A DNA stretch of 64,000 nt from Hydnum rufescens UP504 (lineage: Eukaryota; Basidiomycota; Agaricomycetes; Cantharellales; Hydnaceae): contig MU129108.1 in NCBI GenBank assembly GCA_014904985.1, positions 44,319 to 108,318 on the forward strand. The letters run 5' to 3'. The position numbers and the translations under genes are program-made. Under the pieces are notes generated by a model. The model worked only from the letters and a program-made list of their open reading frames with translations, made no database searches and was not told the DNA's origin. Every line of letters begins with the position of its first letter. Position 1 is the first letter of the stretch. Positions 1,845 through 55,995 of the stretch are shown here, in pieces.

Positions 1845-2105
1845 GTTTTTGTAGTACCTACAGGTTTGTACGTGACCTTGGAAAATAATTATTGGTTTGA
1901 AGTTATTTTCCTAAGTTATTTTCTGGGGCCCCTAGCGGTGAACTTACAAAATGTATGGCCTTTGAAGTTGGTTCCGAGGGGCCCCAGGGGCCCCTGGGGC
2001 ACCTCCAGGGGCCCCTGGGGCCCCAGGCCTATATATCTAACTAGATGGTTTGAATGCAACTCTCGTTGTATCTAGTTAGACATAGATAATTGGCTGACCA
2101 GCCTG
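1845..2105 (+). repeat. KDZ element 3' terminal region
   Basis: Downstream of the KDZ stop lie several GGGGCCCC-type palindromes (1925-2030), then the inverted pair CTAACTAGAT / ATCTAGTTAG around 2038-2080, and finally TGGCTGACCAGCCTG at 2091-2105. The same order, with the same last 15 bases or a close variant, recurs at 10692-10706, 16629-16643, 18708-18722, 22099-22113 and, inverted, 11812-11826. I therefore take it as the end of the element. No clear target-site duplication is visible. Confidence 0.65.
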
Positions 2106-5085: not shown

Positions 5086-6507
5086 ACACTGTGGATGCTG
5101 GAGAGCAATCTGCAATGGAGATGAAGTTCAGCTCCATCTCAGTTGATAGTCCGCCTCTGCTTCCTATTGTCACCCTTCCTGCTCCTGCTGTCCCTTGTGC
5201 TCCTGCTGTCCCTCCCACTCCCACTCCTGCTCCCATCGTCCCTCTTGCTCCTGTTGCCCCTCTTGCTCCTGTCATTCCTCCCACACCCATTGTTCCTCCC
5301 ACACCCATTGTTCCTCCCACACCCATTGTTCCTCCCACACCCATTGTTCCTCCCACTCCCATTGTTCCTCCCACTCCCATTGTTCCTCCCACTCCCGTTG
5401 TTCCTCCCACTCCTGTTGTTCCTCCCACTCCTGTCATCCCTCCCACTCTTGTCATCCCTCCTGCTCCTGTCATCCCCCTTGTTCCTGTCGCCCCTCCTGC
5501 TCCAGTTGCCCCACATGCTGTAGCTGCCCTCACTGCTGCAGTTGCCTCCCCCTGTCAGGTTACCCCTCCTGCGTCCGTTGCCCCTCCCACACCCATTGCC
5601 CCCATTGCTGCAGTTGCCCCCCCCGCTGCAATTGGCCCCCCTCTTTGGTTATTCCTCCTGCTCCTGTTGCCTTTCCTGCTGTTTCCCTGCTGCCATGGCT
5701 TCCATCCCTGCTTTGGGGACGTGGTATGTTGTTGCCATCAACAAATGGCAGGTTGATGAAGCTGAAGGACAGAATGCTCACCTATATGAGCAGGAGGCCT
5801 TGGAAGAATTCCGTCCAATGGGTGCATTGGCAATGAGTCGCTCTCATGCCAACAAAAAACAGTCAAAGAGTCAAGGATGTATTGTGTACAAGATGTTCAT
5901 CTATTTTAAGGACCAGATACAGGCACAAAGTGCCTTGGAGAATATTCGTGCGATAGCCAAGGTGCGAAATTATCTAGGTGTTGAGTTTATCACACTCCCC
6001 AATGTTGATTATGCTGGAATTGGGTGCAAGGCTATGGACTTGCATTATGCCTCTGTGGTGTATGATCGAGCACAGTCACTGGAGGAATGGGATGCCTTAC
6101 TTACCATTGCACCCAGTATTCACATCAACTCAGCACAGATGGGGCCCCAATTTCTTGAGCATGACCTCCACCCTCTTCCCCCCCAACTATCGCCTGGTAA
6201 TGTACACAAAATGGCCGCATGTTCCTTCACCACCAATGATTTTGAGATGTGTATTACCCTCCAAGAGCAGAATGAAGGCCCTGACTCTATCAGTCTCGGG
6301 ATTCAATGGTTTATGATGCTGCTTTGTGCCTTCTGGTCAAGAAAGCCTGCAACATTTAAGACCAGACTCTCTCCCTCACATGTGGTTCTTCGCAATGAGC
6401 TGGTCAGGTTTTTGGATTGGTTTGGGTACACTGAAGAGTTTGGAGTCTCAGAGACTTTTGGGATTAAATCCAATATGAAATGGCATCTGGTCATTGAGCT
6501 GCCTTGA
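5049..6507 (+). pseudogene. Pro-rich hexapeptide-repeat protein, frameshifted
   Basis: The first part reads as a Ser/Pro-rich leader and then a PPTPIV-type hexapeptide array in frame 3 (5049 onwards). The array continues in frame 2 (PPSLVIPPAPVAFPAVS), and from about 5690 in frame 1 as MASIPALGTWYVVAINKW and a further 260 residues of ordinary composition ending at 6507. Two shifts therefore lie at 5600-5690, where there are runs of six to eight C. I do not recognise the C-terminal domain. It directly follows the ULP1-type gene and overlaps its end, so it could also be that protein's tail. A gene of similar plan lies on the minus strand at 50394-53017. Confidence 0.5.
5278..5470 (+). repeat. 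18-bp coding minisatellite
   Basis: About ten tandem copies of an 18-base unit, CCTCCCACTCCCATTGTT with variants, encode PPTPIV/PPTPVV. The period equals six codons, so unit gain or loss keeps frame. Confidence 0.9.
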
Positions 6508-7017: not shown

Positions 7018-9902
7018 ATGTCAACCCATGACCCAAATACCAGTGGCTCGAGAAAGAGAAAACGGGGGTCCAGTCCACCACAAAACAGTATGACTGACCC
7101 CTCCTCCACATATACAAATGCCTTCAAGGCAGGTGTGGCCTTGTTCCAGGATGTGGCTGATACTTGTCCAAAACCTCCCAGACATGCCCATCATGGGATC
7201 TCAAAGAAATCGGTGGCTCCCAGAACAATTCTTCCACAGGAGCCCTCAAGTTTGACAGGTCATAAAGGCCCTAAGAAACTAGCACTGATCACAACTTCTT
7301 CTGTGTGGAAGTTGGACAAGGAGACTGGCACATTTGTTACTGTCATGCCAGTGCATAAGGCTGTTAACCGGCCTGCATGACCAGCAATCTCAGCACCCCA
7401 TTATCATTGACCTGTATCATCTGCCATGTCATCCGTCGATCTCCATGACAAGGAACGCCACACATTGCTGTTTTCTACTGCAGTAGGTGGCAATAGTACC
7501 CCTCGTCATGAGGCTCCATTGCCAGAAGCTGTGGAATGCCCGTTTTCTGTACAATATCCAACATACGCCAGAGGTTTAGATCACTTCTCAGTGGAGCAGG
7601 CGCTGTCTTGTCATGCACATTGCTGGGCTGCCACAGCATGGAGGTGGGATCATGAGATTATCCCCTCCTTAATTCGTCCATATATGGAGTACATATGCTG
7701 GTCAAAGTGGGGCCAATCTCACATAGATCATGTGTTGGTCAAGTGTTCATGTGGTGGCCCTGCAGTATTTAAGGTGGTTACTACTGTTTACATGGATCGT
7801 ATGTAGTTTTGCCTTAATATCATGGTTAGATTCTAACTAACAGACAGACTTCCATAGGTCTTGGCAGCATTGAGTTATGCATGTGTCAATGTACAACTGC
7901 GAGTGCTCCAGTTCAACTAGTAAAGCAGGGATTATTTCCTTGCTCGCCTGTTTATCCGGCCCTTGCAATCAACCTGGAAATGCTGGAATTCGCTCTGACA
8001 CTATTTGTCCATCTCACTCCGAATGAAGCCGCATGGTGTGATGCTCTCACAATGTTCTTGTCAAAGAGAGGACATGTATTTGATGCAAAAGACTCATTCT
8101 GTCAGAGATTTGGGACTGCACTGCACCAGTATCAAGTTCTGATATGAGTTGTCAATGCTGAAATGGACAAGCAAATAGGCATTGCCCATCAGGAAGTCCT
8201 ATCCCAAGACCCCATCGAATGAGAGGCTGTCATGTCTGAAGTGATACCTTTACCAAAGATTGATGTGATCACCCCTATCACACACCAGCTGTATGTCAGT
8301 GCCCTGAGCAGCAACAGCCTCACTATTCACAAGCCCACTGCTTCTCAGAGTGTGCCCACTGTTTCTCATGGTGACTTGCCAAGTACTGATGTCCCAAACC
8401 TGGACCCCCCTCATAATCCTCATCTTACTCCATCTGATTATATTCATTCTTGATGCCCATTATGTGCTGGAGCTGGCGGTCAGACCACAGGAAGCAAGCT
8501 GTAAGTAATGTCTATGTAGTTCTTAACTCTTACTTATGAAGCACCCTTTGTAGCCCTGAACTCTTCATATGCATTGATGCTTGCTTTGCTTTGTGCCAAA
8601 ACAAGGACTATGACCAATGTCCAGGCCACAAGAAACAACCTGGTGTCCAAGATCCTCACATCATCACACCAGGAACACATGAAGTACCCCACAGTTTCCT
8701 GGAAGCTTGGAAAGTGAGAGTCGAGGCTGCGCGCTCCATGCAACATGAAGGCAATAATGCCAAAGCCCCAAGATGATCTAACAAAGGCAAGTATGCACCT
8801 CATGATGATCATGGAGACGCAATCGAACCAGGGCTACGAGTCCCCAATTCGTCTCTTGATTCCTGTGGCAAGTCCTTTGTGGCAGCTGATGGAAACAGAA
8901 TAAAGACACCTGGGGACCATTTCTCTGACACTGGAGTGATAGCTGCAGTCTGCCAACATGATTGTGTGATTGTCTATGCCAGTATGTGGACTCCTGGTGA
9001 ACAGCAGTTCTATGCCTTTGCCCTTATTGATGCAGTCATGGCTGAGCTTCCTGAGCATTGGCAAGTTGGTATCCTGTATGACATTGGCTGCCAGATCCAC
9101 CACAGTGCTCTCAAATGGGATCTTCTGCCACAGTGGATGCCATGCATCATATTTGCCATCAGTGTTTTTCATGCATACAGTCATCAATGGGTGTACCAGC
9201 TGTGGTATCATCCTCAGAAGGGGGATGTCTGGGGGCTGATGGATGGTGAGCATTGTGAGCGTCTGTGGAGTGACCTTTGACATCTTATTCCCAACCTGCA
9301 TGTTTCCAGATATCATTGTTGGTTGTTCATCCTTGATCTCCAAATTGAACACCTAGATGATGTTAAGTTGTCCCAGGCTGGAATCTGGTTGGAGAGACAT
9401 GTGAAGTTGACGATGGAACATCTTTTTCTTGCTCAGCAGAAGAGGTCAGCAATTATCTACAGTGACGAGTACCTTCAAGCACAATTTGAAGAACAATGAG
9501 CGTATCAAAGCCGACCTTTGGAACAACAATCCAAGAAAAAGGGTTTCCATGCTGTTTGAGAAGATCCTTGCTGTGCATCAACGCATTAATGTGGCTCGTG
9601 ATTTGGTCAGGGCTCTCCAGCAACAGCTTGTTGCTGCCCCAGTGGTGGACAGCATTGCCAGTAGGAATGAGATTGGCGAGATAATGTCCACAATTGCTGA
9701 GCAAGAGAAAGTCATCTCATGTTTATCAAAACAAGATGAGGATATGATGGCAACATTGCAGCTTGGTGATCCAGTCTCATTCAAGCAACTGCAAAAAATG
9801 AAACACCATGCATGGTTTGAACATCAGCTGAACATGCGTGCCCTCAAAGCTCGGATTATCGCAAGGGTGTGCAAGAAAAATTTCGAAACTCATAATCTTC
9901 AG
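7018..9902 (+). pseudogene. KDZ transposase, copy 2, N-terminal and catalytic parts
   Basis: From N to C the frame gives a basic leader (GSRKRKRGSSPP), the CxC cysteine cluster (CSCGGPA, then CMCQC...GLFPCSPVYPAL), the first catalytic Asp in ICIDACF (about 8570), YDIGCQIHHSALKW (about 9080) and DGEHCERLW (about 9245). Introns fit at 7799-7857 (59 nt) and 8501-8553 (53 nt). At least eight in-frame stops lie at 7378, 7408, 8145, 8220, 8451, 8774, 9278 and 9497, and all are TGA. There is also a one-base insertion near 9560. The last two stops fall where copy 1 has Arg. The gene ends abruptly at about 9902, where the hairpin array begins, and the C-terminal exons are missing. Confidence 0.85.
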
Positions 9903-10706
9903 CCACGCAAAAGAGCAGCAAAGCTGCTCTTTTTGCGTGGTTTTTAATTTTACTAACTTAAAAGTTGTCTTGTAGGTCTCAACGTCCCTGCAAATGAATA
10001 CAGAGGCAAAACCCCGCCCCCCCCCTTTTCGACGCCGCGAACGACGGGCACCCATACGACCCCCGTACGTACGAGTGAGAGTACACGGCCCAGTACCCCA
10101 CACCACTGCAGCGGTGTGGGGTACTACAAGGTATTTTTTCTTTATTTTTATTCCTTATTCTTGTGGCGCAAAAAGAGCAGCATAAGCTGCTCTTTTTGCA
10201 CTGCATTGTTTAACTAATTCATTAATTAGTTCTCTAAATATTGGACCGAGCCCGCACGAACCCCGACCACAGACCGCCGGCGACGGCTGTGAACGAAAAC
10301 CGGGAACGAAACCGCAAGGCCGCACGAACGAAACCGTGAGCGACTCCCCTTGAGGGATCACCCAAATGGAACCAGAGGCCCTGACTGGGTGAATTCCAGG
10401 TAAGTGTTTTTTTCTTTAGCTACACTTGCACAAGAAACAGCAGCCTCTGAGGCTGCTCTTCTTGGCACAGGGTGAGCCCCACTGGGCGAGCCTATGGTTG
10501 TATATACTAAATATAATAATAATATAATAATAATAATATATATATAAATTAATAATGCATAATCTGGCAGGGCCCCTGGGCTGCTTGGGGGGGCCCTTGA
10601 TTGTATTGCAGGGCCCCCAGGGCCCCTGGTAAAAACATCTAGTTAGATATAATAAATGCAAGGCTCATTATATCTATAATGATGTGAAAAGTGGCTGACC
10701 AGCCTG
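9903..10706 (+). repeat. Hairpin-intron array, element i
   Basis: The array starts inside an intron-like unit. Palindrome B lies at 9903-9940 (CCACGCAAAA...TTTTTGCGTGG), with branch TACTAAC at 9951 and acceptor AG at 9974-9975. Exon-like 9976-10130 ends in palindrome A (10092-10125) and donor GT at 10131. The next B is at 10166-10201 with acceptor AG at 10228-10229, and exon-like 10230-10399 ends at donor GTAAGT (10400). The last B is at 10427-10468. An AT-rich microsatellite (10501-10550), GGGCCC palindromes (10566-10635), the CATCTAGTTAGATATAAT inverted pair and TGGCTGACCAGCCTG (10692-10706) close it. The upstream flank is KDZ copy 2, in the same direction. Confidence 0.75.
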
Positions 10707-10797
10707 CCAAAGACCTTGTTCTAATAATGGATATTTTCTAAGTTCACTGGCACAAGGGGAGGGGCCCCAATTATTATTCAAAATTATGTAAGTTAAA
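10707..10797 (+). repeat. Duplicate of KDZ 3' flank
   Basis: This stretch is nearly identical to 12006-12095 in the same orientation (CCAAAGACCTTGTTC ... AAATTATGTAAGT). The copy at 12 kb belongs to the 3' end of KDZ copy 3. Here it is cut by the sequence gap, so a misassembly or a nested insertion is possible. Confidence 0.7.
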
Positions 10798-10822
10798 NNN
10801 NNNNNNNNNNNNNNNNNNNNNN
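10798..10822. other. Assembly gap
   Basis: Twenty-five N. The true distance and the link between the two sides are unknown. Confidence 1.
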
Positions 10823-11811
10823 TCTCAGAGACTGGGTGGAGGCTGTTGAAACCAAAGCAAACAAGCCAGTGAAGGACATTCAAAGGAGCTTGTTCCCAGA
10901 GAATTCCGATGATTCCAAGATGTGTTTTCCAAGGACTCCTTCAATCAGCTCCCTGGCTGGAAACCATGGGATCACCACATCAAGTTAAGCAAGGGAGCCC
11001 AGCTACCTCCCCCAGCCAAAATTTTCCCACTCTCCCCAGCTGGAGCAAAAAGAAGCTCAATGACTTCCTGAAGGAAAACCTGGCCTCCGGTTGGATCCAC
11101 CTTCCAAATCCCCTATGGCTCGCCCCGAGTGTCTTCATGAAGAAAAAAAGATGGAGGGTTTTGGCTGGCCCAGTGACTACCAGAAACTCAAATGACATCA
11201 CTGTTAAGAATGCATACCCTTACCTCTGATCTCTGATGTCATTGACCAACTCTGAGGAGCCAAAGTGTTTGGGAAACTGGACTTGTAGTGGGGCTTCCAG
11301 AATATCTGGGTGGCAGATGGAGAAGAATGGAAGGCAGCTTTCCAGACCAACCAAGGACTGTTTGAACCCTTGGTCATGTTCTTTTGGACTTTGCAACTCT
11401 CCAGGCACCTTCCAAAACATGATGAATGATGTCCTCTGAGAATGGATTGACAATGGAGCATGTATCATATATCTGGATGACATCTTGAGCTTTGCCAAGA
11501 CATGAGAGGAGTAATGTCCATGGAGTCCACAGGATCTTACAGACACTCTGGGAGAACAAACACTTCCTGAAGCCAGAGAAGTGTGAGTTCTTCTGGGACT
11601 GGATCAAGTATCTGGGGATGGACCCTATCAAAGTTGCAGGTGTGATGGAGTGGCCAGAGCCCAAAAACTTGAAGGAGACACAATCATTCCTGGGGTTCAT
11701 CAACTTCTACCACTGGTTCATTCAGGACTTTGCTATAGTTGCCAGGCCTTTGAATGACCTCACCCAGAAAGACACTCCTTCCAGTGGACTGATGCTGAAT
11801 GTAATGCCTTC
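10823..11811 (+). pseudogene. Ty3/gypsy reverse transcriptase fragment
   Basis: Broken frames follow the RT core in order: PPPAKIFPL-like, KKLNDFLKENLASG, a degenerate KK..RPVQDYRKLN region, ISDVIDQLRGAK, WKAAFQTNQGLFEP, the IYLDDIL active-site motif at about 11467, NKHFLKPEKCEFF and ETQSFLGFINFY at about 11680. Many stops and shifts are present. CpG is rare, as in the neighbouring old repeats. The fragment is bounded by the sequence gap on the left and by the KDZ terminus (11812) on the right. Confidence 0.85.
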
Positions 11812-12013
11812 CAGGCTGGTCAGTCACTTTTGCCCATCATATTAGATATAATGCACATTGCATTTATTATATCTAATTAGATGTATTTACTGTGGTCCCC
11901 CTGGGGGCCCCTGGGAGGTGTTTTGGAGGCGGGTATCCTACAGCCAGGGCCCCTGGGGGCCCCAAGAGACTTTTAGGGGCCCCAAAATGGCCTTGGGACT
12001 GCCTCCAAAGACC
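11812..12013 (-). repeat. Left 202-bp terminal inverted repeat
   Basis: The sequence runs from CAGGCTGGTCAGTCACTT, through an ATATAAT...ATTATAT stem and GGGGCCCC palindromes, to CTCCAAAGACC. Against the right copy I see only one C-to-T type change and two one-base indels in G/C runs. Confidence 0.8.
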
Positions 12014-12080
12014 TTGTTCTAATAATGGATATTTTCTAAGTTCACTGGCACAAGGGGAGGGCCCCAATTATTATTCAAAA

Positions 12081-12961
12081 TTATGTAAGTATAAATCTCG
12101 AGTCAATACTGGAGTCCCAGTCACTACTTCCTGCATCAGAGGCCCCATCATCTGAGCACTGCTGACAGATTAGATCTGAAGCAGCAAGGATATCCATATC
12201 TGCCAGAACAGGAGCAGGCTCCAGTTCTAGATCTTCATCATCATCAGAACTATCAACATCACTCTCAATGCCATTGGAATCTAGTTTCCTGGGCCTATCA
12301 GACTGCTGTGGTCTTGCATGGGCTGGAGCCTGTATCTGTTCTGCCAAAAGTCCTACACTGTGCAACAATGGGTGTCGAGCTGGCAATGATGGAGCCATGG
12401 CATCAGATATGACCAAAGCATCCAGTGATTGCCCCCAAGTCTGGCCAAGATTGCAAACAACTTCAAAGACATTCCAAGAGGAAGAATTTCACATCTGAGT
12501 CTTAGATTCAAAGCATTCATTAGAAGAATTGGCCAAACTAAGAAGAAAGATATCATACCTGTAGAAGAATTCAATAGAGTCATCATTGAGGCTGATTCCT
12601 CATCAAACCAATGTTCAAGAGAATTTCTTTCTCTCCAACAAAGCTCGAGTTCATCCTGACAGAGGCAATGTCTTGGACAATTCATATTCCATTTCGAACC
12701 ATTTCATGCCCAAGCCAAGGAACATCACCTCGAACTCATCGTCAGCAACCGATGTCCTGCCCAAATGTCATTATCAACATCCAGGCTGAAGAGCCCTTTC
12801 ATATCAATAGATGGCAGAATGAGAGCATTTCGAGGGATACCTTGAGACCATGAAGCTCTTCATACTTTCTCGGCATTTTTATTGTACTCTGCAACAAGAC
12901 CCTTGACAGATTGATAACGGTCGCTTGATGCTCTGCTGGTGTGCTGCAGGGTACTTATGGT
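12081..12961 (-). pseudogene. KDZ transposase, copy 3, C-terminal exons
   Basis: Reading the minus strand, the first exon starts after an acceptor at 12962 and matches copy 1 (DRYQSVKGLVAEYNKN, IPRNALILPSIDMKGLFSL, DELELCWRERNSLEHWFDEES). A 58-nt intron (12501-12558) sits exactly where copy 1 has its second intron, and the last exon ends in the acidic SSDDDEDLELEPAP tail, with a stop at 12081. Frameshifts and TGA codons break the first exon. Upstream on the minus strand it is joined to the hairpin array instead of the catalytic exons. Confidence 0.8.
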
Positions 12962-13773
12962 CTGATAACAACAATCAGATTTGCCAGTGAGCACAAGCAA
13001 TAGTGAAATAATAATTATGAGTACACACCTACAGCCTTTGATTGAAAAGCATCCAGTGGGCTGTAGCTGGAGGGGGACTTACCTTATATAGAACCGCACA
13101 CCTGCCATGGCGGGTGTGTGATTCTGGGCCCTTCTTTGGCGCGTTGCCATGGGCTGTGTCCTCATTTGGCGTGGTGCCACATGTTGCGTCGTTTGCCTGT
13201 TGGCATGTTGCATTGCTGTGTTGTGTTGCCATCTATCGCATTGCCGCGTTGCGTTGGCGTGTGCGTTGCTCTCGTCGTTTCGTGGGTTATCGTCGTACCT
13301 ACAAAATAACATTTTTAAATTAGTTAAGAATTGAATACCACGCAAAAAGAGCAGCTTTCGCTGCTCTTTTTGTGCGGGTGTAGCTACTGGGGTGGGGCTC
13401 ACCTTATATACTACCACACACCCGCCGCAGCAGGTGTGTGGTTCCTGAGGCTCGTTTGGCATGTTGCCGTGTGTCGCGTCCTCATTTGGCGCGATGCCGT
13501 ATGTCGTGTTGTTGGCACGCTGCTGTATGTTGCATTGTTGGCGCGCTGCTGTTCGGCGCATTGCCGTGTATCGTGTTGCCACTTGGGCTCTCGCCGTTTC
13601 GCGGATTATCGTCATGCGTTGGACGAGGCTGCAATCTAGAATAATTAAATACATTAGTAAAAAATTTTAAAGCAGCACAAAAAGAGCAGCTTTCACTGCT
13701 CTTTTTGCGCCATTGTATCTACTAATAAAATACTCACCTTGTGACCACACACCCGCCACTGCGGGTGTGTGGT
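12962..13773 (-). repeat. Hairpin-intron array, element ii, left arm
   Basis: Minus-strand reading gives A 13742-13773, donor GTGAGT at 13737, B 13675-13710 and acceptor at 13636 (102-nt intron). Exon-like 13403-13635 carries A 13413-13442, then donor at 13402, B 13338-13375 and acceptor at 13299 (104 nt). Exon-like 13083-13298 carries A 13092-13123. The last donor, GTAAGT at 13082, has no B after it; instead a KDZ-like exon end follows, and the next good acceptor is the KDZ one at 12962. A transcript could thus splice array exons straight onto the KDZ C-terminal exons. The exon-like parts are CpG-rich and lack a long open frame of normal composition. Confidence 0.75.
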
Positions 13774-14520
13774 CGTCTGCTTGCCTTTCCAGGCGGTGGC
13801 TTGTTGTGGTTTCGGAAGAAGACGACTCAACGCCGGCAATTGCCAGTTGTTAAAAAGTGCCCAAGCGCAGTGCTGCAAGCAGAATACATATTAATACCAA
13901 GTATATAGACATGAAATAAACACTATATAATATATATTTGTCCAAAAATGTGAATAAGATGACGATAATAAGTCAGAGCTCAAATAAGGCATAATATGGC
14001 TAATTGCAGAGTGGATGGGGCCACTTCTATGAGTCACAATTGGCCCAAATTTAAATATAATGATAGTAAATGCATACCCCTACATGGGCGACCAGTTATA
14101 TTAGACGATTCTGGCACTTTCAATTTTTCACGCCTTCAATTCCCTAAATAGGGAATTGAAGGCGTGAAAAATTGAAAAATGGGGAGAGTGTCCAAGATAA
14201 TTAGTCTCCAATGTAGGGCACGTATACGCCAGCAATATATTTAAATTTGGGCCGATCCTGAACAGTAGAAATCGCCCAATCCACCTTGCAATGTAGCATA
14301 TCATGCCTTATTGGACTCTGACTGATTGTCTAGGTCTTCTTTATTTTTGTGGGAAGACATTAATCATATATTATTTATTCTACATCTATTTACTTGCTAC
14401 CAATTCATATGGCACTCGTGGCGCCACGCACTTGGGCGCTTTTTGGGTGCCAGCAATTACCGGCGTTGAGTTGCCTTCATTCTTGACCACTAAGGCAACC
14501 ACCCAAAAAGGAAATAGACG
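13774..14520. repeat. Foldback centre of element ii
   Basis: The two halves are diverged inverted copies, meeting at CCTTCAATTCCCTAAATAGGG (centre 14147.5). Matching outer blocks are CTCAACGCCGGCAATTGCC (about 13830) and, inverted, GGCAATTACCGGCGTTGAG-like sequence (about 14450). Array units point outwards on both sides. No gene is seen. Confidence 0.7.
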
Positions 14521-16180
14521 ACCACACACCCGCCGCTGCGGGTGTGTGGTCACTAGGTGAGTCTCCTTTTATAGTAGTAGCTACAACAGCGCAAAAAGAG
14601 CAGCAAAGGCTGCTCTTTTTGCGCTGCTTTGAATTTCTTTACTAACGTATCTTTATTATTCTAGATGATGGCCTGGGACGCCAGACAAAAAACCCCCAAG
14701 CAACGAGGGCACGACCAACCAGGGCCAAAACAACAACGAGCCAGCCGACAAGAAAATGACGTACAAGAACACCAACGAGACCATGGCAGACGTGCCCAGT
14801 GAACGGCCATAAGAACCACACCTGCTGTGGCGGGTGTGTGATTCTATGTAAGGTAAGTCACTCAGTACACCCAACAGCGCAAAAAGAGCAGCATTTGCTG
14901 CTCTTTTTGCGCTGGTTTTAATTTTTAACTAATATATTGTCTATTATTCTAGGTCCATCGCCTGAATCAGAACCACCAAACGAAGACCCGCCGAACGACG
15001 AGTCGCCAAACGAGCTGCCAAACGAGCACCCACCAAACGAGCACCCGCTAAACAAGCACCCGCCAAACAAGCACCCGCCAAACGAGCACCCACCAAACGA
15101 ACACCCGCCAAACGAGCACCGCCAAACGAGCACCCACCAAACGAGCACCCGCCAAACCAGTACCCCCAAAATGAGCACCCGCCAAACAACGACCCGCATG
15201 CGTAACTACACAAACCACACACCCGCTTCGGTGGGTGTGTGGTAATAATAGGTACGTCCAATCCCAACGGTGCCAAAAGAGCAGCAGAAGCTGCTCTTTT
15301 GGCACCTCTGTTTTCTTTTTTTTTTACTAATGTATTATTATTTGTTCTTCTAGGTCTCTTCCCTCCGTGAAGACCCACCCGACGAGGACACGGACAAGCC
15401 CCCAATACGCGCAGCCACCCAAGCTGCCCCCCAAAACGATGATCAACGGAACCGCGTACCACACACCCGCCAAAGCGGGTGTGTGGTAAATATTAGGTAC
15501 ATCTTAATCCCACCGGTGCCAAAAGAGCAGCAGAAGCTGCTCTTTGGCACCTTTGTTTTCTTTTTTTTACTAATATATTATTATTTGTTGTTCTAGGTCC
15601 ATTCCCTATGTGAAAACTCACCCGACGAGGACATGGACGAGCCCCCCCAGTATACCATTTAATGCGCAGCCCCACATGCCTTGAGTGCCTGCCCCCCGAA
15701 CACGACGATCGGCGAAATCGCGTACCACACACCCGCTGCGGCGGGTGTGTGGTTTTATATAATGTAAGTGCACTCCCAACGGCGCAAAAAGAGCAGCACT
15801 GCTGCTCTTTTTGCGCCTGTTTTAATTTTTTAAACTAATGATCTATTATTCTAGGCTAGCAACAAATGAAGACCCATAGAATGAGCCCCCCCCCTGAACA
15901 ATAACTTGCCCGCAAAGCAGGATCCACGAACGGGATGCCAAATGACGAAATGAAGTGATGCCAAACCATAGGAACCCCACACCCATGATAGTGGGTATGG
16001 CTCTGTAAAATATAAGTAATGCACGTCCCCGGTACCACACACCTGTCCAAGCAGGTGTGTTAGATAGTGTTTTTTTTGTTAGTTTTTAATTTTTTTATGG
16101 ATAGTACCACATGCCTGCTCAAGCAGGTGTGGTATGTTTGTGAATTTTTGAATAAATAAATAAATAAACCAGTCAATAAA
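14521..16180 (+). repeat. Hairpin-intron array, element ii, right arm
   Basis: Five clear introns are 14557-14664 (108 nt), 14853-14952 (100), 15252-15353 (102), 15497-15596 (100) and 15764-15854 (91). Their B palindromes lie at 14589-14624, 14877-14912, 15269-15306, 15515-15551 and 15781-15817. A palindromes lie at 14521-14550, 14816-14843, 15214-15243, 15458-15487 and 15724-15753, each 6-13 nt before its donor. Donors are GTGAGT, GTAAGT, GTACGT, GTACAT and GTAAGT. Acceptors read TATTCTAG or TTCTAG, preceded by ACTAAC or ACTAAT. Exon-like parts 15354-15496 and 15597-15763 are homologous, so units multiplied with their exons. From 15855 the array decays, with two degenerate A palindromes at about 16033-16065 and 16106-16135. 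Confidence 0.85.
14961..15190 (+). repeat. 15-bp minisatellite inside an array exon
   Basis: About twelve tandem copies of CCAAACGAGCACCCG and variants fill exon-like 14953-15251. One frame reads as PNEHP repeats. Strand composition is strongly skewed to A and C, as in all plus-oriented exon-like parts of the array. Confidence 0.85.
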
Positions 16181-16441
16181 AACACAACATGACTGCTGAG
16201 TGAAACCCTGCTGACCCCAGGGAGCATATGTATAATATCATGCCAGGTGTAGCCCACTGTTGTCTGAGAATCTCTAAGTCCCAGTCTAAGGTGAGAGGCA
16301 GGGGCCCCTGGGGCCCCTGCCTGAATCATGCAAATCATGTTAGCCGGCCCCAGGGGCCCCTGCCTAAAAACATCTAGTTAGACTATTTAAATGCAAGGCT
16401 CATTGTATCTAACTAGATGTACATTTGTGGCTGACTGGGTT
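16181..16441 (+). repeat. Array end and truncated GGCCCC terminus
   Basis: 16181-16289 shows no gene. 16290-16365 holds GGGGCCCC palindromes. 16368-16422 holds CATCTAGTTAGA and its inverse TCTAACTAGATG around an ATGCAAGGCTCATT loop, then TGGCTGAC at 16431-16438, after which the next inverted repeat (16442) starts. It is a second terminus that stops short of its last bases. Confidence 0.6.
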
Positions 16442-16643
16442 GGTCTTTGGAGGCAGTCCCAAGGCCATTTTGGGGCCCCTAAAAGTCTCTTGGGGCCCCC
16501 AGGGGCCCCTGGCTGTAGGATACCTGCCTCCAAAACACCTCCCAGGGCCCCCAGGGGGACCACAGTAAATACATCTAATTAGATATAATAAATGCAATGT
16601 GCATTATATCTAATATGATGGGCAAAAGTGACTGACCAGCCTG
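16442..16643 (+). repeat. Right 202-bp terminal inverted repeat
   Basis: This is the inverted counterpart of 11812-12013, ending TGACTGACCAGCCTG. The two spans have equal length and sum to constant coordinates, so there is no net indel between them. Confidence 0.8.
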
Positions 16644-16888
16644 TGCACAGGCCCTCATTTCGCCTTGGGCCTCTTCTGGTTTCTTCCAGTGGGGTTTCGC
16701 ACAGTGAAGGAAGAGCTAGAATGAATGAATAATACATTAGTAAATTAAATAAAATGAGGCAGCACCAAAAGAGCAGCTGATGCTGCTCTTTTGGCACCGT
16801 CATGCAGGCCTTAGTTGACTTACAAGGCATCACTACACCTGCAGTGGGTGTGGTCCTGTGGTACTTCCCTTCATGTCCATGTTGAGTC
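16644..16888 (-). repeat. Hairpin-intron array, element iii, left arm
   Basis: One minus-strand unit is seen: degenerate A at 16832-16854, donor GTAAGT at 16823, B at 16762-16798 with GGTGCCAAAAGAGCAG arms, a TACTAAT branch and acceptor at 16716 (108-nt intron). The outer part of this arm is missing; it abuts the terminus at 16643. Confidence 0.7.
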
Positions 16889-17245
16889 AAGGACACTACT
16901 CAACACCGGCACTTTCTGGGATTGAAAGAGTGCCCAATTTCATTTGGGATCTTGCATCTGGAGAACTGAAACTTTCCTTGATGGGACATATATCCACTGT
17001 ATGCAGTCAGCCTGCAACATCCATATCTATTCTCTGCTGGAGAGGGGGATTTGGTGTTTTGATTGATTACTATAATGGCCTTGACAAACATTCTCGGACC
17101 ACTAGATGCATGCAAGATACATAGTATTTATTATTTGCTGCCCATCTAGGTATTTATTACCTATCTAGGTTTGTGCAGCCCATAATTGGGTGCTATTTTG
17201 ATCCTGGAAAGTGCCAGCAGTGAGTGGTTTGTTTTGAGGCTCACC
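16889..17245. repeat. Centre of element iii
   Basis: The outer blocks match the other centres: CTCAACACCGGCACTTTCTGG at about 16900 and its inverse CCTGGAAAGTGCCAGCAGTG at about 17203. Unlike the other centres, the interior is not palindromic. No gene is supported. Confidence 0.55.
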
Positions 17246-18519
17246 TAAGCCACCTCTTTTGTATATAGGACTCAATGCACAAAGACTGAGGGGGAAAACA
17301 GGATCACACACCCACTGCAGCAGGTGTGTGATCATATAAGGTGAGTGTCCATCCCAGTAGACACAACTGCGCAACCAGGGCAGCAAAAGCTGCCCTGCTC
17401 CTTTCACTAACTGACATCTTATTTCTATTCTAGGTTATCATCTCCCACCTGAACAATGACCTGTGTGAAACCCGTGGAGACCCTGGGAAGATTAATGCGA
17501 AACCAGACCCCATGCAAGAATTCGCATGTGTGCACAGCCCCTAAACGCATGTGACAACAGATAAAATATGGTACCACACACCCACCACAGTGGGTGTGTG
17601 GTAATATATGATGAGTCTTTTATTACAAACTGTACCATGGTGCCAAAAGAGCAGCATGAGCTGCTCTTTTGGCACTGCCTCTTGTTTTTTAATACTAACA
17701 TATTATTCATTATTTTAGATCCTCCTTCCTGTGCCAAGACCCACCCTATGAGACTGCGGACAAGGCCCCCAACGAAAATGTCAATATGTGCACCCACCCA
17801 AGACCGCACCCAAGAGCCCAGCCCCCAAACTTCGGGAATATATGCGATGAGGGGTAAACCATGATACCAGACACCCACTGGTGTCTGGTACTGCAAGATA
17901 AGTTTTGTTTTATTTTTATTTTTTATTTTTGTGGCACAAGAAGAGCAGCATAAGCTGCTCTTCTTATGATGCTTTACTAACACCCTTATTTTTCTAGATC
18001 TTGAACCCCACATGAACCCCCAACACCAAACCCATGACCTGAAACCCTGCAAACCCAAACCCCACAAACCCAAACCCATGACCATGACCCCGAACCCACT
18101 GAGTGAAACCAAACCCCATGAACAAAACCACGAATGTTTGAGTACCACTCACCCACTGCGGTGGGTGTGTGGTACTGTTGGTAAGTTTTTTTTCCTAGAG
18201 CATACATTTAACTAACACATCTTTTATTTTAGGTGACAAAATAGCCTCCCCCTGGACAGGAACCCACATGAACCCCTGAATCAGCCCCTGTGAGATGTGC
18301 GCACTGGACCCCGGGCCACACAAACACATCAGCCAGGCCTGCCTCATGAGAACAAGCAACTGAGGCCATGCACAAACACATGAACCAGACCCCATGCAAA
18401 CATGCAAACAAACCTTGTGTGTGCACCCCTGCTGTGGTGGGTGATCATTTAAGGTGAGTATTTTCATATTGCTACAAGTGCACAAGAAGAGCAGCCACAG
18501 GCTGCTCTTCTTGCATGGG
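17246..18519 (+). repeat. Hairpin-intron array, element iii, right arm
   Basis: Introns are 17341-17433 (93 nt, B 17369-17402), 17611-17718 (108, B 17639-17676), 17897-17997 (101, B 17931-17975) and 18181-18232 (52 nt, no B). A last donor at 18454 is followed by B 18479-18515. A palindromes lie at 17302-17333, 17572-17603, 17865-17890, 18141-18176 and a weak one at 18421-18446. Two donors read ATGAGT (17611) and ATAAGT (17897), each one G-to-A change from GTGAGT or GTAAGT. The exon-like part from 17719 is homologous to exons 15354 and 15597 of element ii. Confidence 0.8.
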
Positions 18520-18722
18520 TGAGCCTAGTGTATATAATAATAATAAATAAATAAATAATTGTAATGGCTAGGGGCCCCAGGGGCCCCTGGGCTGCTTGAC
18601 TGGCCCCCTCAACTGAATTGCAGGGGCCCCTGGGGGCCCCCTGGGTCTGATATCTAGTTAGAGCATATAAATGCAACCTTCAAAGTATCTAGTTAGATAC
18701 TGATAATTGGCTGACCAGGCTG
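18520..18722 (+). repeat. Terminus of element iii
   Basis: An AT-rich microsatellite (TAATAATAAATAAATA) is followed by GGGGCCCC palindromes (18570-18645), ATCTAGTTAGAG ... ATCTAGTTAGAT and TGGCTGACCAGGCTG at 18708-18722. The layout equals that of 10470-10706. Confidence 0.7.
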
Positions 18723-20241
18723 CACCTGCTTCAGTGGGTGTGTGGCACTGTATTTGTTTCATCATATGTTGCAGATATACGACCGTTGGGGTCTTGAGTG
18801 GCTGTGCCCACCACCATATTTCACCCAGGGTCCCGTCAGTGCATTCTTCAGGTGGGGTTTCATGGAGTGAGAAGGGACCTAGAATAATGCAGATGTTAGT
18901 AAAAAAAATAATTCAAGCAATGCCAAAAGAGCAGCTAGTGCTGCTCTTTTGGTGTCATGGTACACCCCATAAAAAGAAAACTCACCTAATAGTGCCACAC
19001 GCTGTTGGAGGGATAAATCCCTACACCATAGAAACACTATCCGAGGCCAATTTTACAACCAAACAAACGGACTGAACATCCATCCGATTCTTGATTTTCA
19101 CACCCTTCATTCATTGGAGAAACAGTCCAAATTCTATATGTCCGAAACCCGCCATTCCACGTCGTTCCTTTGCCTTAAGGGCGAAGAATTGTGATTATGT
19201 AATGACGCGGACTGTGCCTGGCCTTCGTTCTGGACCCGCGGACCCATCACATGATTCAAAAAGGGATTATGTCACTCTAAAGGAGTATTTTTCGAATTCC
19301 TCCGTCAGTTTTGATCGGATCGACTCGAAACGACCGCGCCCAGAAAGATACGAATCGTACCTATCGAACGGTACCAAACACGAAACGAGCGGATCAAAAC
19401 TGCAGTCCCCGTAACAATATCTTTCCATGATTCATACTCTGAAGGAGTATTTCTTGATTTCTGAAGCCAATTCTTATCGGATTCGTTCGCGAGTACCACG
19501 CCCTGAAAGCTGTTGAAAGGGCGCATCGAACGGTACCAAGGCAAAACGAACGGACGCGAACTCCATTTTTCACCAGACAACCCCTTCCTCATGACTCCCC
19601 CTTGCTCCACCAACACAAATGACAAATTGGTTCTGGCCTCTTAATTCCGATGCAAAGGGCACTCAGGGCGACCTATTCCACCTTTCCTTAAGGGAATCTA
19701 TCCAGTTTCAAGGGAGGAATGCCTTGTAAAGTGTTTTTGTCTCTTTTTCACTTGATTCTTGAATATCTCCACCAGTTTTGAAGCTTTTGACTTCATTTCT
19801 TTTTCATTATGCTTCCCTTATCTCGCTTTTCTTCCGGAATTTTTAATTGTGGTCTGGAATGTATATAAAGGGGAGGGGGCATGTAAATATTTGGTTTTTC
19901 CCCTTATCACAGTCTGAGGCACTGAAGTATTGCCGCTGTCTGGAGGAGATTTCCCACTTGTCAAGACTTTTTACAGCCGCATTTAGACTGAATAGTCAAG
20001 AGGACAACTTCAGGGTGTGGCCTTGACATCTTAATTTTGTGACACTGATCTATTCCTTTGAGCAATCACTGTTCATTGGGATTTCCTATTATCCTAAAAG
20101 ACCTTCATTTTCCCGGACCTGAATATTCGAATTGTCCCCATGGCTCCCTTCTTTTGTCCTATCCTCAATGACGTGGACAGTAGTTGGATTGGTTTAATAA
20201 CCATCCTGCTTACAACGCCCACCAGGGTGGGTGTGTGGCAC
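18723..20241 (-). repeat. Hairpin-intron array, element iv, left arm, split by a solo LTR
   Basis: Minus-strand intron 18879-18985 (107 nt) has donor GTGAGT, B at 18921-18955 and acceptor TTCTAG. Its A palindrome is in two pieces, 18991-19002 and 20219-20241, because a solo LTR sits inside it. A half palindrome at 18722-18748 marks a further, truncated unit. Confidence 0.75.
19003..20214 (+). mobile_element. Solo Ty3/gypsy LTR, CpG-rich copy
   Basis: The 1212-bp sequence runs from TGTTGGAGGGATAAATCC to CTGCTTACA, the same ends as the LTRs of the gypsy element at 54611-64000. It is flanked by a 4-bp duplication, ACGC (18999-19002 and 20215-20218). A TATAAA box lies at 19863-19868. Orientation follows the complete element. 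CpG sites are mostly kept. Confidence 0.85.
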
Positions 20242-20940
20242 TGTTGTGCTTGCTTCAGGCTTGATGTTGAGTAGAATCTGAAGATCCTACTCAATGCCAG
20301 GACTTTCCAGGCTTGAAAGAGCACCCAATTAGGGGCAGTACCAACTCATATGGATAGATAATAAATACTAAATATCTGTCTAAAACAGGTGGAGGAATAA
20401 ATGATAGTCTGTTGGATTGCACTAAGGCACCATGTGCAAAGAGGAATTGGGCAACTTCCATGCATTATAATTGGCCAAGATTTGAGTATCTTGGTGGGAT
20501 GTATATATATTTTATGTTGATGAAATGAATTGGACAATCATGCCAATTTTCAGTTTCTTGTGCCTTCAATTTCCTGAATAGGAAATTGAAGGCACAAGAA
20601 ACTGAAAATTGGCATGATTGTCCAATTCATTTCATCAACATAAAATATATATACATCCCACCAAGATACTCAAATCTTGGCCAATTATAATGCATGGAAG
20701 TTGCCCAATTCCTCTTTGCACATGGTGCCTTAGTGCAATCCAACAGACTATCATTTATTCCTCCACCTGTTTTAGACAGATATTTAGTATTTATTATCTA
20801 TCCATATGAGTTGGTACTGCCCCTAATTGGGTGCTCTTTCGAGCCTGGAAAGTCCCAGTGTTGAGTTGTTTGTTTTGATGATTACCTAAGCTACCTCATT
20901 CATATATAGGACAACCAACAGGATCCCACAGAACTAGAAC
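20242..20940. repeat. Perfect palindrome at centre of element iv
   Basis: Arms of about 280 bp (20290-20575 and 20580-20865) are near-identical inverted copies around the 4-nt spacer GAAT; the centre is 20577.5. The arms produce the same 63-residue frame on both strands (20346-20537 minus, 20618-20809 plus), which I do not regard as a gene. Outer blocks (GACTTTCCAGGCTTGAAAG and its inverse) are shared with the other centres. Confidence 0.9.
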
Positions 20941-21900
20941 AGGACCACACACCCACCATGGTGGGTGTGTGGTCCTATAGGTGAGTTCCCTCCTACTATA
21001 TACAGCCATGCAAAAAGGGCAGCAAAAGCTGCCCTTTTTGCACTCCTTTAACATTTTAACTAATATACATATTATTTCCATTGTAGGTTTAAGGTTGTCA
21101 TGAATAACAATGATACAAAACACCTGAAAATCAATGCGGGCTGAAATCTATCCAAGACCCCACATACATGCACAGCCCCCACACCCATGCAACGACAGAT
21201 AAAACACGGCACCACACACCCACTGCGGCAGGTGTGTGGTGCTATCTGGTGAGTTCCATCCCCCAATAGATACAGCCACACAAGAAGGGCAGCTGTTGCT
21301 GCCCTTTTGCGCTCTTTGACATTTGAAACTAACATACTATGTGTGCCAAAGGGTGATGTGTCAAATGGCAATGCATCAAATGAGCACACAACAGATGAGA
21401 ACCTGCCCAGCAAGTGGCCCTGGGAACCACACCTGCCATGGCAGGTGTGGCCTATATACAGTGAGCCCCCACCCCCATGACCCTGCATATCAAAACATGG
21501 CTGACAATACACAGGGTATATAAAGTACCACACACCCACCACTGTGGGTGTGTGGTACTACAAGGTGAGTTTTTTTATTAATCCTGTGGTGCAAGAAGAG
21601 CAGCATAAGCTGCTCTTCTTGTGATGCTTTATTGTCTAACTAATGTATTGTTTTTTTCCCTAGATCTTGGACTCAAATCCAAATGAACCCCGACCCCAAA
21701 CCCACCAAATGAACACCTGGTGAATGAAGATCCAGTGAGCTGAACCCCACAACCCACCCAATGACCCAAACCCACCAAGCTGAACCCTGTGACCCCAAAC
21801 CCACCAAACCAAGCCAAACCCCCCACATGAAGGTAAGGTTTTTTTTCCTTTGGCTACGATCATGCAAGAAGAGCAGCCTCTGGCTGTTCTTCTTGGGTGC
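20941..21900 (+). repeat. Hairpin-intron array, element iv, right arm
   Basis: A 20941-20976 is a perfect 36-base palindrome, followed by donor 20981, B 21009-21042 (GGGCAG/CTGCCC arms) and acceptor 21086. The exon-like part 21087-21248 holds A 21209-21242 and is homologous to 17434-17610 of element iii. Donor 21249 and B 21277-21310 follow, but no good acceptor. Next come A 21427-21450 (perfect 24-base palindrome), A 21524-21559, and intron 21565-21663 with B 21588-21627. The last exon-like part is 21664-21832, then donor GTAAGG at 21833 and a degenerate B at 21863-21900. CpG is nearly absent here, unlike element ii. Confidence 0.8.
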
Positions 21901-22113
21901 ATGGGTGAGCCTATCATTGTATATAATAATAACATTAGTAATAATGATAATAATAATAATAATAAATAAATAATCCATAGCTAGGGGCCCCTGGGCTGCT
22001 TGAGGGGCTGCTTGGTGGCCCCTGGAGGCCCCTGGTGTAAACATCTAGTTAGATATGATAAATGCAATGCTCATCATATCTAATATGATACAGAAAAGTG
22101 GCTGACCAGGCTG
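21901..22113 (+). repeat. Terminus of element iv
   Basis: The order is the same as at the other ends: GGTGAGCC, a TAATAATAATAAATAAATA microsatellite, GGGGCCCC palindromes, CATCTAGTTAGATATGAT...ATCATATCTAATATGAT, then TGGCTGACCAGGCTG at 22099-22113. Confidence 0.7.
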
Positions 22114-25100
22114 ACCCACACACAGCCTAATCAACAACACCTAGCCCTCAGGGGGGGCACATGAACCCAAAATGGAATATTGAGGATAGTGCAGTGGAAA
22201 GTGGTTGGTTCATGGCATAAATATGCTCAGCAGATTCAGACAAGTATGATGAATTGATTAAGCCCAAGAACACTGAAATTGGCCATGATTTGACCCCCCC
22301 AGGCAATGTTGAGTGGGAGATGAGAGGAAGATGAGGAACAGCAAAGCCAGAAGTTCTCAGAAAGCACTGAAGGTAAGTGTGTTGAGAAGATGTGATTTGG
22401 GCACACAGAATACACCCACACACAGCCTAAGCAACAACACCTAGCCCCTGGGGGGCCACATGAACCCAAAATGGAATATTGAGGTTACCATGATGGAAAG
22501 TGGTCGGTGTGTGGTGTATATATGCTTGATGGATTCAGATGAATGAGACAAATTGATTAAGCCCAAGAACACCAAAATCAGCCATGATTTGACCCCCCCA
22601 GGCAATGTTGAGTGGGAGATGAGGGGAAGATGAGGAACAGTGAGGCCAGAAGTTCTCAGAATACACTGAAAGTAGGTGTGTTGAAAGGCTGTGATTTGGG
22701 CACACAGAATTCACCCACACACAGCCTGAGCAACAACACCTAGCCCCCAGGAGGAACACATGAACCCAAACAGGAAGATTGACCATAGTGATGTCATGTG
22801 AATCAGGTGGTGTATTCTCTTGAAGTAGGCTTGTTGGAGAGCTGATATTTGGGCACAGATGCTGTGCCCACACTCAGCCTATCCCACAAAGCCAGGGCCC
22901 CAGTGGGACCCAGCAACATCACATTTGATGTCAGCTGTCTGTTGAAAGCTTGACTCAACACTGGCACTTGCTGAAATTAACAAAGTGCCCATATACACTG
23001 TTCCAATATACCTGGATACCAGCTATTTTTCTGCCACTTATATTTGTAATTCCATTGTTGTATTTCTTTGTTTCTCTTCATGTCCACTTGCCTACTATCT
23101 TGGTGTGCTCTGTATACCATATATGTACACTATTAGCCTTTACACCTCAGGTCTGTTTCCAATGTCCTTTCCAATCAGTACAGTACATGTACTTGGCCAT
23201 TATGTACATTCCTGCCAGGGGGGCCAGGTGTCCTCATGTCCCCATTGTCATCACTGGCCCCCCTTCTTCATATTTCTTTTCTTCCTGCCTCCACCCTCCT
23301 TCTCCTGTTGATGATTTAAGGGACCTCACAGACACACAATTGAGTTTCCCCCCTGACCTAACAGGCATGGACAGTGTCCTACATGAGATATGTATATCAG
23401 CAGATGGGAGGCCCCTGGCAGTAGTGAAATCCTTTCAGACTTCACTGAGTGTTGAAGAAATGTATTTATTCAGATTTTCTGAGGAACAATGGAGTGCACT
23501 TGCCCTCCACTCTGGGAGAGAATCTGAATGATTAGACCTGAATCCTCAGGGATTGGGGGTGGATTTATTATGCCCACCACAACCAGGTGTTATTTTCATT
23601 CCACAAGAAATGCTGTATCAGGCTGTAGTGTCCAGGGTTACAATTTGGATATAGGGGTAGTATCCACTGTTAGGCATGTGTCCATGCATCCTGAACCAAA
23701 TTTGAGACTTGTCACATGTCACACAATCCCATGAACTGACTTTCAGATGGGTGTGACACATGGGGAGGTCACTTGATATTAAAGCACATATGGGCCTGAG
23801 TGCCTTTAAGCACTAGCAAATCCCCAATATCTCTTTCATGGAATTTCTGGCATCCATATGGGGATCTTCCTTTTAGTCCTCAGTATTCCAGCTGTACAAT
23901 GAAATAGTTGTTGGGGATTTGCTAGTGCTTTAAGGACTAAAAGGAAGATCCCCATATGGATGCCAGAAATTCCATGAAAGAGATATTGGGGATTTGCTAG
24001 TGCTTAAAGGCACTCAGGCCCATATGTGCTTTAATATCAAGTGACCTCCCCATGTGTCACACCCATCTGAAAGTCAGTTCATGGGATTGTGTGATATGTG
24101 ACAAGTCTCAAATTTGGTTCAGGATGCATGGACACATGCCTAACAGTGGATACTACCCCTATATCCAAATTGTAACCCTGGACACTACAGCCTGATACAG
24201 CATTTCTTGTGGAATGAAAATAACACCTGGTTGTGGTGGGCATAATAAATCCACCCCCAATCCCTGAGGATTCAGGTCTAATCATTCAGATTCTCTCCCA
24301 GAGTGGAGGGCAAGTGCACTCCATTGTCCCTCAGAAAATCTGAATAAATACATTTCTTCACCACTCAGTGAAGTCTGAAAGGATTTCACTACTGCCAGGG
24401 GCCTCCCATCTGCTGATATACATATCTCATGTAGGACACTGTCCATGCCTGTTAGGTCAGGGGGGAAACTCAATTGTGTGTCTGTGAGGTCCCTTAAATC
24501 ATCAACAGGAGAAGGAGGGTGGAGGCAGGAAGAAAAGAAATATGAAGAAGGGGGGCCAGTGATGACAATGGGGACATGAGGACACCTGGCCCCCCTGGCA
24601 GGAATGTACATAATGGCCAAGTACATGTACTGTACTGATTGGAAAGGACATTGGAAACAGACCTGAGGTGTAAAGGCTAATAGTGTACATATATGGTATA
24701 CAGAGCACACCAAGATAGTAGGCAAGTGGACATGAAGAGAAACAAAGAAATACAACAATGGAATTACAAATATAAGTGGCAGAAAAATAGCTGGTATCCA
24801 GGTATATTGGAACAGTGTATATGGGCACTTTGTTAATTTCAGCAAGTGCCAGTGTTGAGTCAAGCTTTCAACAGACAGCTGACATCAAATGTGATGTTGC
24901 TGGGTCCCACTGGGGCCCTGGCTTTGTGGGATAGGCTGAGTGTGGGCACAGCATCTGTGCCCAAATATCAGCTCTCCAACAAGCCTACTTCAAGAGAATA
25001 CACCACCTGATTCACATGACATCACTATGGTCAATCTTCCTGTTTGGGTTCATGTGTTCCTCCTGGGGGCTAGGTGTTGTTGCTCAGGCTGTGTGTGGGT

Positions 25101-25560
25101 GAATTCTGTGTGCCCAAATCACAGCCTTTCAACACACCTACTTTCAGTGTATTCTGAGAACTTCTGGCCTCACTGTTCCTCATCTTCCCCTTATCTCCCA
25201 CTCAACATTGCCTGGGGGGTTCATATAATGGCCAATTTTGGCATTCTTGGCCTTAATTGATTCGTCTGATTTGTCTGAATCCATTGAGCATATTGACACC
25301 ACAAACTGACCACCTTCCACTGTGCTATCCTCAATCTTCCATTTTGGGTTCATGTGCCCCCCTTGGGCACTAGGTGTTGTTTCTCAGGCTGTGTGTGGGT
25401 GTATTCTGTGTGCCCAAATCACAGCTTTTCAACCCACCCCTATTAAATATATCCTGAGATCTCATGGCCACACGGTTCCTCATCTTCCCCTCACCTTCCC
25501 TCACCACCACCAGGGATGCTCAAATATTTGCTGTTTCAAGCATTATTAGCCTTGTTTGAT
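22114..25560. repeat. Three-kilobase palindrome with flanking tandem units
   Basis: Arms of about 1.26 kb (about 22620-23880 and 23933-25195) are nearly identical inverted copies around a 52-bp spacer (23881-23932); only a few differences are seen. Further out the symmetry decays. The flanks are tandem units of about 300 bp beginning CACACACAGCCTAA.CAACAACACCTAG (22120, 22420, 22718) with inverted partners on the right. The sequence ACTCAACACTGGCACTT...AAAGTGCCC at 22954-22991, and its inverse at 24823-24859, ties this structure to the centres of elements ii-iv. CpG is almost absent. Confidence 0.85.
22950..23531 (+). other. Open frame within palindrome arm
   Basis: A 193-codon frame runs across the arm; a mirror copy with two residue changes is on the other strand at 24282-24863. 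The second half (DDLRDLTDTQLSFPPDLTGMDSV...EEMYLFRFSEEQWSALALHS) has normal protein composition, while the first half looks like a non-coding hydrophobic translation. No family is recognised. It may be a gene fragment caught in the repeat. Confidence 0.25.
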
Positions 25561-55973: not shown

Positions 55974-55977
55974 AATC

Positions 55978-55995
55978 TGGTGGTCCTTACAGGGG
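55978..55995 (+). promoter_or_regulatory. Putative primer binding site
   Basis: TGGTGGTCCTTACAGGG starts four bases after the LTR end and begins with TGG, as expected for pairing with a tRNA 3' CCA. The tRNA species was not identified. Confidence 0.5.

Follow-up and report, generated by a model that had tools for sequence, protein, structure and literature searches.

Miniature inverted-repeat transposable elements (MITEs) are non-autonomous, bear short terminal inverted repeats (TIRs) and target site duplications (TSDs), and are usually under about 1 kb long. Foldback-type elements (FB, Galileo), which bear long terminal inverted repeats, combine an inverted-repeat architecture with tandem subrepeats, and small nucleolar RNA (snoRNA) host genes combine non-coding exons with functional splicing or introns. 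The same combination is seen in the intron-bearing, silencing-related non-coding RNA dg of fission yeast, as presented in the available text of PMC5322907. Introners are similar introns in large numbers, spread in the manner of DNA transposons, and the available text of PMC9860276 includes introners with TIRs and TSDs. For the KDZ transposons, the available portion of PMC12730594 (Kojima 2025) gives 8-bp TSDs in Zisupton and CA...TG ends in Kyakuja. The subject of this report is a dispersed DNA element of Hydnum rufescens UP504, three copies of which (E1, E2 and E3) lie within positions ~9896-22113 of a 64-kb window (the whole stretch of DNA analysed, C200:44319-108318 of the 63.2 Mb genome), and which is built of exon-intron modules carrying a palindrome A and a hairpin B.

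These A/B elements resembled each of the described systems in part. Their length (5309, 4170 and 5299 bp in the three copies delimited by exact TSDs) and transcription-unit design set them apart from MITEs, and in contrast to foldback-type elements their long inverted repeat is central, their terminal repeats are short and their subrepeats are exon-intron modules. Unlike snoRNA host genes or dg, they are mobile, multicopy and mirrored, with a hairpin B in each intron and no snoRNA match in 9800-22200. Unlike introners, their introns are internal and the modules carry their own exons, with no host-gene insertion in the sample. They share the TSD length of Zisupton and the CA...TG ends of Kyakuja, and have a terminal region similar to that of an element in the window with a KDZ transposase gene (KDZ1), but differ from KDZ transposons by a body of two divergent exon-intron arrays around a palindromic centre. 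No prior description of such elements was found in the open-licence literature. Given the ends, the 8-bp TSDs, the mirror layout, the conservation of motifs and hairpins, and exons with no convincing reading frame, all seen in the sequence, the A/B elements are probably non-autonomous transposons of KDZ type, with two divergent transcription units that are non-coding and spliced.

Intron modules and mirrored arms

Outward from the centre of the element, each module consisted of an exon, palindrome A, a donor, hairpin B, a branch site and an acceptor. The first 26 kb of the window and 20 fetched stretches of about 10 kb, chosen for carrying the repeat, contained 200 units with 190 distinct introns. 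The donor was AAG/GTRAGT-like, the branch site was mostly TACTAAC or AACTAAT, and the intron closed with TATTCTAG, the commonest distance from the first base of the branch motif being 24-25 nt. Palindrome A was recognised within 60 nt upstream of the donor in 149/200 units, which bears out the initial annotation, made from the sequence of the window, in placing A at the end of the exon just before the donor; in 132 of these 149, the GGTGT arm of A stopped 11, 13 or 15 nt short of the donor.

Of 257 hairpins, 135 had strict full splice motifs on exactly one strand and none had them on both, compared with 2.9% of random positions (either strand) and 0.2% of shuffled flanks (one strand scored). 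A further test used no splice signal in the selection and oriented 213 units with A and B solely by the position of A (a further 2 units flanked by A on either side and 41 lacking A were excluded). GTRNGY was present in 170/213 units, CTRAY plus YAG in 178/213, and both in 152/213, which thus displayed donor, branch site and acceptor ordered on one strand as in U2-type introns, while in the reversed controls 11 donors and 14 branch-acceptors were counted. The exact B core occurred 4,237 times in the genome (reversed-pattern control, 1), and 2,300 matches on both strands had GTRAGT 20-50 nt upstream of the core (control 0; about 135 expected under an assumed base composition). Among 87 stretches with the pattern in viral contigs, 81 were checked, and in none of these was the core accompanied by another core, by an A palindrome or by a splice-like unit. 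Repeated exon-intron units with hairpin-holding introns of spliceosomal type, as initially annotated, were thus supported by the strand-specific splice signals, together with the covariation of B described below.

Elements with a recognisable centre were mirrored, with palindromic centre arms of up to 331 nt. Of the 135 units no more than 3 kb away from a centre motif, 125 pointed outward; nine of the ten inward units stood at 1.7-3.0 kb from the centre matched and are probably parts of neighbouring elements, and the tenth (L096) overlapped a unit called on the opposite strand. Identity between the two arms reached 95% or more in 10 of the 14 centres (picked as palindromic), against a mean of 74% between elements. 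Genome matches to the centre core pattern numbered 271 per strand and largely coincided between the strands (control 0), which gives a rough idea of how many elements there are. Counted over the 600 nt that precede each of 30 element ends, AATAAA/T was found 212 times in sense and 33 times in antisense.

Conservation of splice signals and hairpins

Constraint was assessed on non-CpG substitutions in 232 alignments between copies at least 85% alike; one partner of each alignment had been selected for motifs and the other had not, and the expectation was halved because of that selection. Exon bodies showed 239/13362 substitutions, compared with 22/5428 in the B stem (P 2e-5 after halving), 3/1354 in the last six intron bases (acceptor P 0.002) and 0/371 in the donor GT (P 0.036). 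As read from these alignments, it is portions of the introns that are kept and not the exons, and since exons drift while splice-site cores and B persist, selection would act on being spliced and/or on the intron hairpin. Exon differences between A/B copies in the fetched loci amounted to 8.9% at all sites and 1.8% at non-CpG sites (close copies), and the heavy decay of CpG sites suggests cytosine methylation of the family. A TET/JBP cargo was considered and rejected, with one sub-threshold match in the whole genome.

Hairpin B covaried: over the 120 hairpins used out of 132 distinct tetraloop hairpins, 12 of the 18 pairs had changes on both sides, and 0/500 shuffles reached any of five measures. 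The sequence of B was kept as well as its pairing. By tree parsimony on the splice-sense strand, the non-CpG pairs of A and B changed from Watson-Crick (WC) to GU 70 times and from WC to AC 25 times (P 4e-6), and 57 and 25 times (P 5e-4) when B position 1 was left out, while CpG positions gave 50 GU and 60 AC, as methylation decay would give. GNRA tetraloops were found in 45/145 hairpins in sense and 0 in antisense, and the fold z of six introns ranged from -4.0 to -7.5.

The main rival explanation is that the modules form a host gene for small RNAs, whose spliced introns would release functional B hairpins, much as snoRNA host genes do with snoRNAs, and whose exons would be mere packaging. 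It would account for exons that drift more than the splice-site cores and the B stem, for a B kept in both sequence and pairing, and for GNRA loops confined to sense. However, no Rfam family reached the gathering score in 9800-22200 (the strongest sub-threshold matches fell on the perfect palindromes of the centres), hairpins of 18-21 bp are short for the familiar small-RNA classes, and most modules also have hairpin A in the exon, so that we consider this explanation unlikely. More doubtful still is that A and B are palindromes acting at the DNA level, as sites for the transposase or another protein or as cruciform-prone repeats, the intron look being secondary. Transposons often carry internal binding sites, the palindromes are near-perfect and present in thousands of copies, and the conservation of A at non-CpG sites barely exceeds that of exons; yet donor, branch site and acceptor are strand-specific, GU is preferred over AC at non-CpG pairs, and the GNRA loops occur in one orientation only.

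Element ends, copying and the likely KDZ partner

The elements ended in an imperfect 16-bp TIR of the form CA...TG. In the three fetched loci where a left end precedes a right end (L099, 5,309 bp; L103, 4,170 bp; L110, 5,299 bp), exact 8-bp TSDs flanked the inverted ends, as in non-autonomous transposons, and no transposase was found inside A/B elements. In the available portion of PMC12730594, TSDs of 8 bp are those of Zisupton; they are usual in hAT as well, which the A/B elements fit in TSD length. Two left ends inside an element nest (L100, 5245 and 5685) had 8-bp flanks that are mutually inverted repeats, which may reflect coincidence or another rearrangement.

The likely partner of the A/B elements, judging by their ends, is a transposase element of the KDZ1 type. 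KDZ1 is the 3' part of a KDZ transposase gene at window 1-1844 (plus strand), assigned to KDZ by PF18758 alone, the match to which (C200:43851-44651) overlaps window 1-333; window pieces 32-565 and 924-1400 of the gene, taken alone, gave no Pfam match. The terminal region of KDZ1 (1956-2105, plus strand) comprises GGGGCCCC blocks, a CTAGTTAGATA-type palindrome and a GGCTGACCAGCCTG end, and stops at 2105 in the same layout as the A/B elements. Its last 150 bp aligned with 8/8 A/B element ends compared, at scores of 37-88 against shuffle maxima of 19-25 (the best, 88, against 24), so that the A/B elements have ends in common with a transposase-bearing element. Window 1440-2105 had 16 full-length matches in the genome including itself, the query stopping at 2105 and so having no bearing on that boundary. 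PF18758 matched at least 154 times genome-wide, with scores computed for 150 of the 584 candidates. A 289-bp unit without B hairpins is repeated in tandem, in 2.7 copies, upstream of the KDZ1 gene (L134 1369-2143).

Among the 126 genome matches listed for joined exons (40 of 407 candidates scored), none crossed a junction, so that copying looks DNA-based. In addition, of 47 junction-spanning local alignments, the 40 listed ran from A into the intron or from the acceptor into the exon, and none was convincing as a processed copy. The initial annotation had named introner-like elements as the nearest known idea. On an introner reading, the hairpin introns themselves would be the mobile units. 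The many similar introns with inverted repeats, as well as the TIR- and TSD-bearing introners known from the available text of PMC9860276, would agree with it, but this idea appears very improbable here. The ends and 8-bp TSDs bound whole elements of 4.2-5.3 kb rather than introns, and 95 of the first 100 listed places with donor and hairpin (contigs 1-5) were within 5 kb of another. All four lone places inspected, out of five among these 100, were inside A/B modules, and neither a lone B intron in a host gene nor an intron-only insertion was seen in this limited sample. The least credible alternative is a protein-coding gene with duplicated exons for a repetitive protein: 15-nt tandem repeats with a Pro/Asn-rich reading occur in one E1 exon (14976-15187) and one of 38 spliced arms (L107+) had a frame over the shuffle maximum, but coding exons were rejected on frame and indel data, since exon lengths had no phase (38/47/49 of 134 for remainders 0/1/2 modulo 3), just 38 of 290 exon-body indels were multiples of three (38/159/93; pairs overlap), and 37/38 arms had a longest frame not above the maximum of 30 shuffles.

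Several observations weigh against spliced, KDZ-mobilised A/B elements. The initial annotation had named, as a ground for refutation, donor and acceptor motifs no more conserved than neighbouring bases; in the alignments, the acceptor and the B stem were more conserved than exons and the donor GT only weakly so, donor positions +3 to +6 (11/814) and intron spacers (1.2-1.8%) were hardly under the exon rate, and the branch site (8/1067) was not significantly conserved (P 0.39). The A region (69/4535) was also hardly under the exons and is thus less clearly constrained. One splice signal was missing in 61/213 units with A and B, which is expected of decayed copies, yet is not proof of it. The GU excess could partly come from strand-biased mutation: B position 1 alone supplied 13 of the 70 WC-to-GU changes, and a single-linkage cluster count (80% identity, positions 1-13, outside CpG-like context) gave 11 GU to 9 AC for A and 9 to 4 for B. 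Sense strands rich in A and poor in T may account for part of the AATAAA asymmetry, and the spliced frame of L107+ topped its shuffle maximum, though the unspliced frame was longer still. As for the KDZ partner, the match between KDZ1 and A/B ends includes the simple GGGGCCCC blocks, the KDZ ends at L126 and L127 shared just an 18-base stretch with two A/B ends, and the end at L128 did not match its flank. A complete, TSD-flanked KDZ1 element was not found, nor was a left end in C200:39801-42800. Finally, Kyakuja, which has no TIR, is reported with 7-bp TSDs in the available portion of PMC12730594, in contrast to the 8-bp TSDs and imperfect 16-bp TIR of the A/B elements.

The three elements and their surroundings in the window

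The span initially annotated as a single array is instead composed of three mirrored elements; their mirrored centre, their transposon ends and their relationship to KDZ are additions to that annotation. The span contained 20 B-type hairpins, with 0 elsewhere in the window; 12 of them were sufficiently long, with arms of 14-21 bp and at most one mismatch, so that the description of the hairpins as perfect is right for many and not for some. An independent scan recovered 11 of the twelve introns annotated, at the same coordinates; the twelfth (15497-15596) has a donor, GTACAT, outside the GTRNGT proposed for all.

The palindromic centre of E1 (13980-14315) has an inner palindrome at 14118-14177 and outer arms that are 73% complementary. 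On its right arm (plus strand), introns at 14557-14664 (with hairpin B, fold z -5.3), 14853-14952, 15252-15353 and 15764-15854 were retrieved, all four by scan and fold, along with the intron of non-consensus donor at 15497-15596, in which hairpin, branch site and TCTAG are all there. Palindrome A was located at 14522-14549, 15215-15242, 15459-15486 and 15725-15752 on this arm. The left arm (minus strand) harbored introns with hairpin B at 13299-13402 and 13636-13737, a palindrome A adjoining the donor at 13745-13772, and further ones at 13094-13121 and 13414-13441. The right end of E1, GTGGCTGACTGGGTTG (16427-16442, plus strand), is followed by GTCTTTGG at 16443-16450.

The segment at ~9896-10706 (plus strand), where the left arm of L103 (2756-3589) matched in reverse, is probably left arm of E1 in displaced and inverted form. 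This part contains hairpins at 9912-9930, 10174-10193 and 10437-10459 and the element end at 10691-10706, followed at 10707-10714 by CCAAAGAC, the reverse complement of the 8 bases to the right of E1, so that the target duplication of E1 is present in inverted form. A second KDZ gene fragment, KDZ2 (8777-9895, plus strand; PF18758 3.2e-36 for 8777-9277), is fused at ~9895-9900 into a B intron, and the first intron of the displaced arm is without a module donor because of this fusion. Window ~9896-13058 is probably, from the arrangement of these parts, an inversion that split E1 and fused the KDZ gene fragment into the B intron. A small repeat is present twice, inverted, beside E1 (11812-12013 and 16442-16643), with identical blocks of 99 and 67 nt and a related GACTGACCAGCCTG end; the sole left end in the window (11812) belongs to this other repeat and pairs with no right end.

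E2 carries a left-arm intron at 16716-16823 (minus strand) and a right-arm intron at 17341-17433 (plus strand), followed by decayed introns with acceptors at 17718 and 17997 and by the right end TTGGCTGACCAGGCTG (18707-18722, plus strand). E3 has a left-arm intron at 18879-18985 (minus strand), a palindromic centre at 20276-20879 with arms of 300 nt that are 96% complementary (a proposed bidirectional promoter), right-arm introns at 20981-21086 and 21565-21663 (plus strand, scan and fold) and the right end GTGGCTGACCAGGCTG (22098-22113, plus strand).

Other repeats were observed in the window. Between KDZ1 and KDZ2, 18-bp tandem repeats were found inside open frames (5156-5641). A different, very large palindrome at 22446-25367 (arms of 1,435 nt, 98% complementary) was matched by L112 11-1619 at 94-96% identity, and thus represents a second palindromic repeat family. 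Window 55905-63827 is a Ty3/gypsy-like retroelement with a 2,015-aa open frame followed by a 624-aa frame; the former displayed DUF4100, RNase H and integrase zinc-binding domains above the cut-off, and reverse transcriptase and integrase core just below it.

Proposed expression of the elements and its meaning

In the mechanism that we propose from the sequence, the palindromic centre of each element would act as a bidirectional promoter, and two non-coding RNAs would be transcribed outward from it, each crossing several modules (often 3-6) before reaching a 3' end that is A-rich and AATAAA-like. In every module, the exon would terminate with hairpin A, hairpin B would sit in the intron, flanked by donor and branch site, and the spliceosome would excise the intron. 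A transposase of KDZ type, for example the KDZ1 one, would move the E1-E3 family in trans. The likeliest benefit, which is an inference, would be that efficient splicing of its RNA lets the element stay transcribed and escape splicing-coupled silencing. In Cryptococcus, according to the available text of the review PMC5851062, inefficiently spliced transposon RNAs are routed to RNA interference (RNAi), and introns help expression and, probably, export. Efficient introns bearing hairpins could serve the A/B elements as a counter-measure. More tentatively, the A/B elements might be selfish elements whose sole selected content is splicing, their bidirectional non-coding RNAs, composed of duplicated hairpin-intron modules, engaging the spliceosome to counter splicing-coupled silencing or to release intronic hairpin RNAs, with KDZ transposase acting in trans.

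The usual view of non-autonomous transposons is that they are truncated remains of transposase genes, whereas here a non-coding mobile element apparently retains thousands of intron-like modules even as its exons drift. KDZ transposons would thereby be tied to a large non-coding partner family. If the proposed splicing is true, the A/B elements would constitute natural replicate constructs for the question, a current one since the link of inefficient splicing to RNAi in Cryptococcus, of whether introns shield transposon RNA from silencing or feed silencing.

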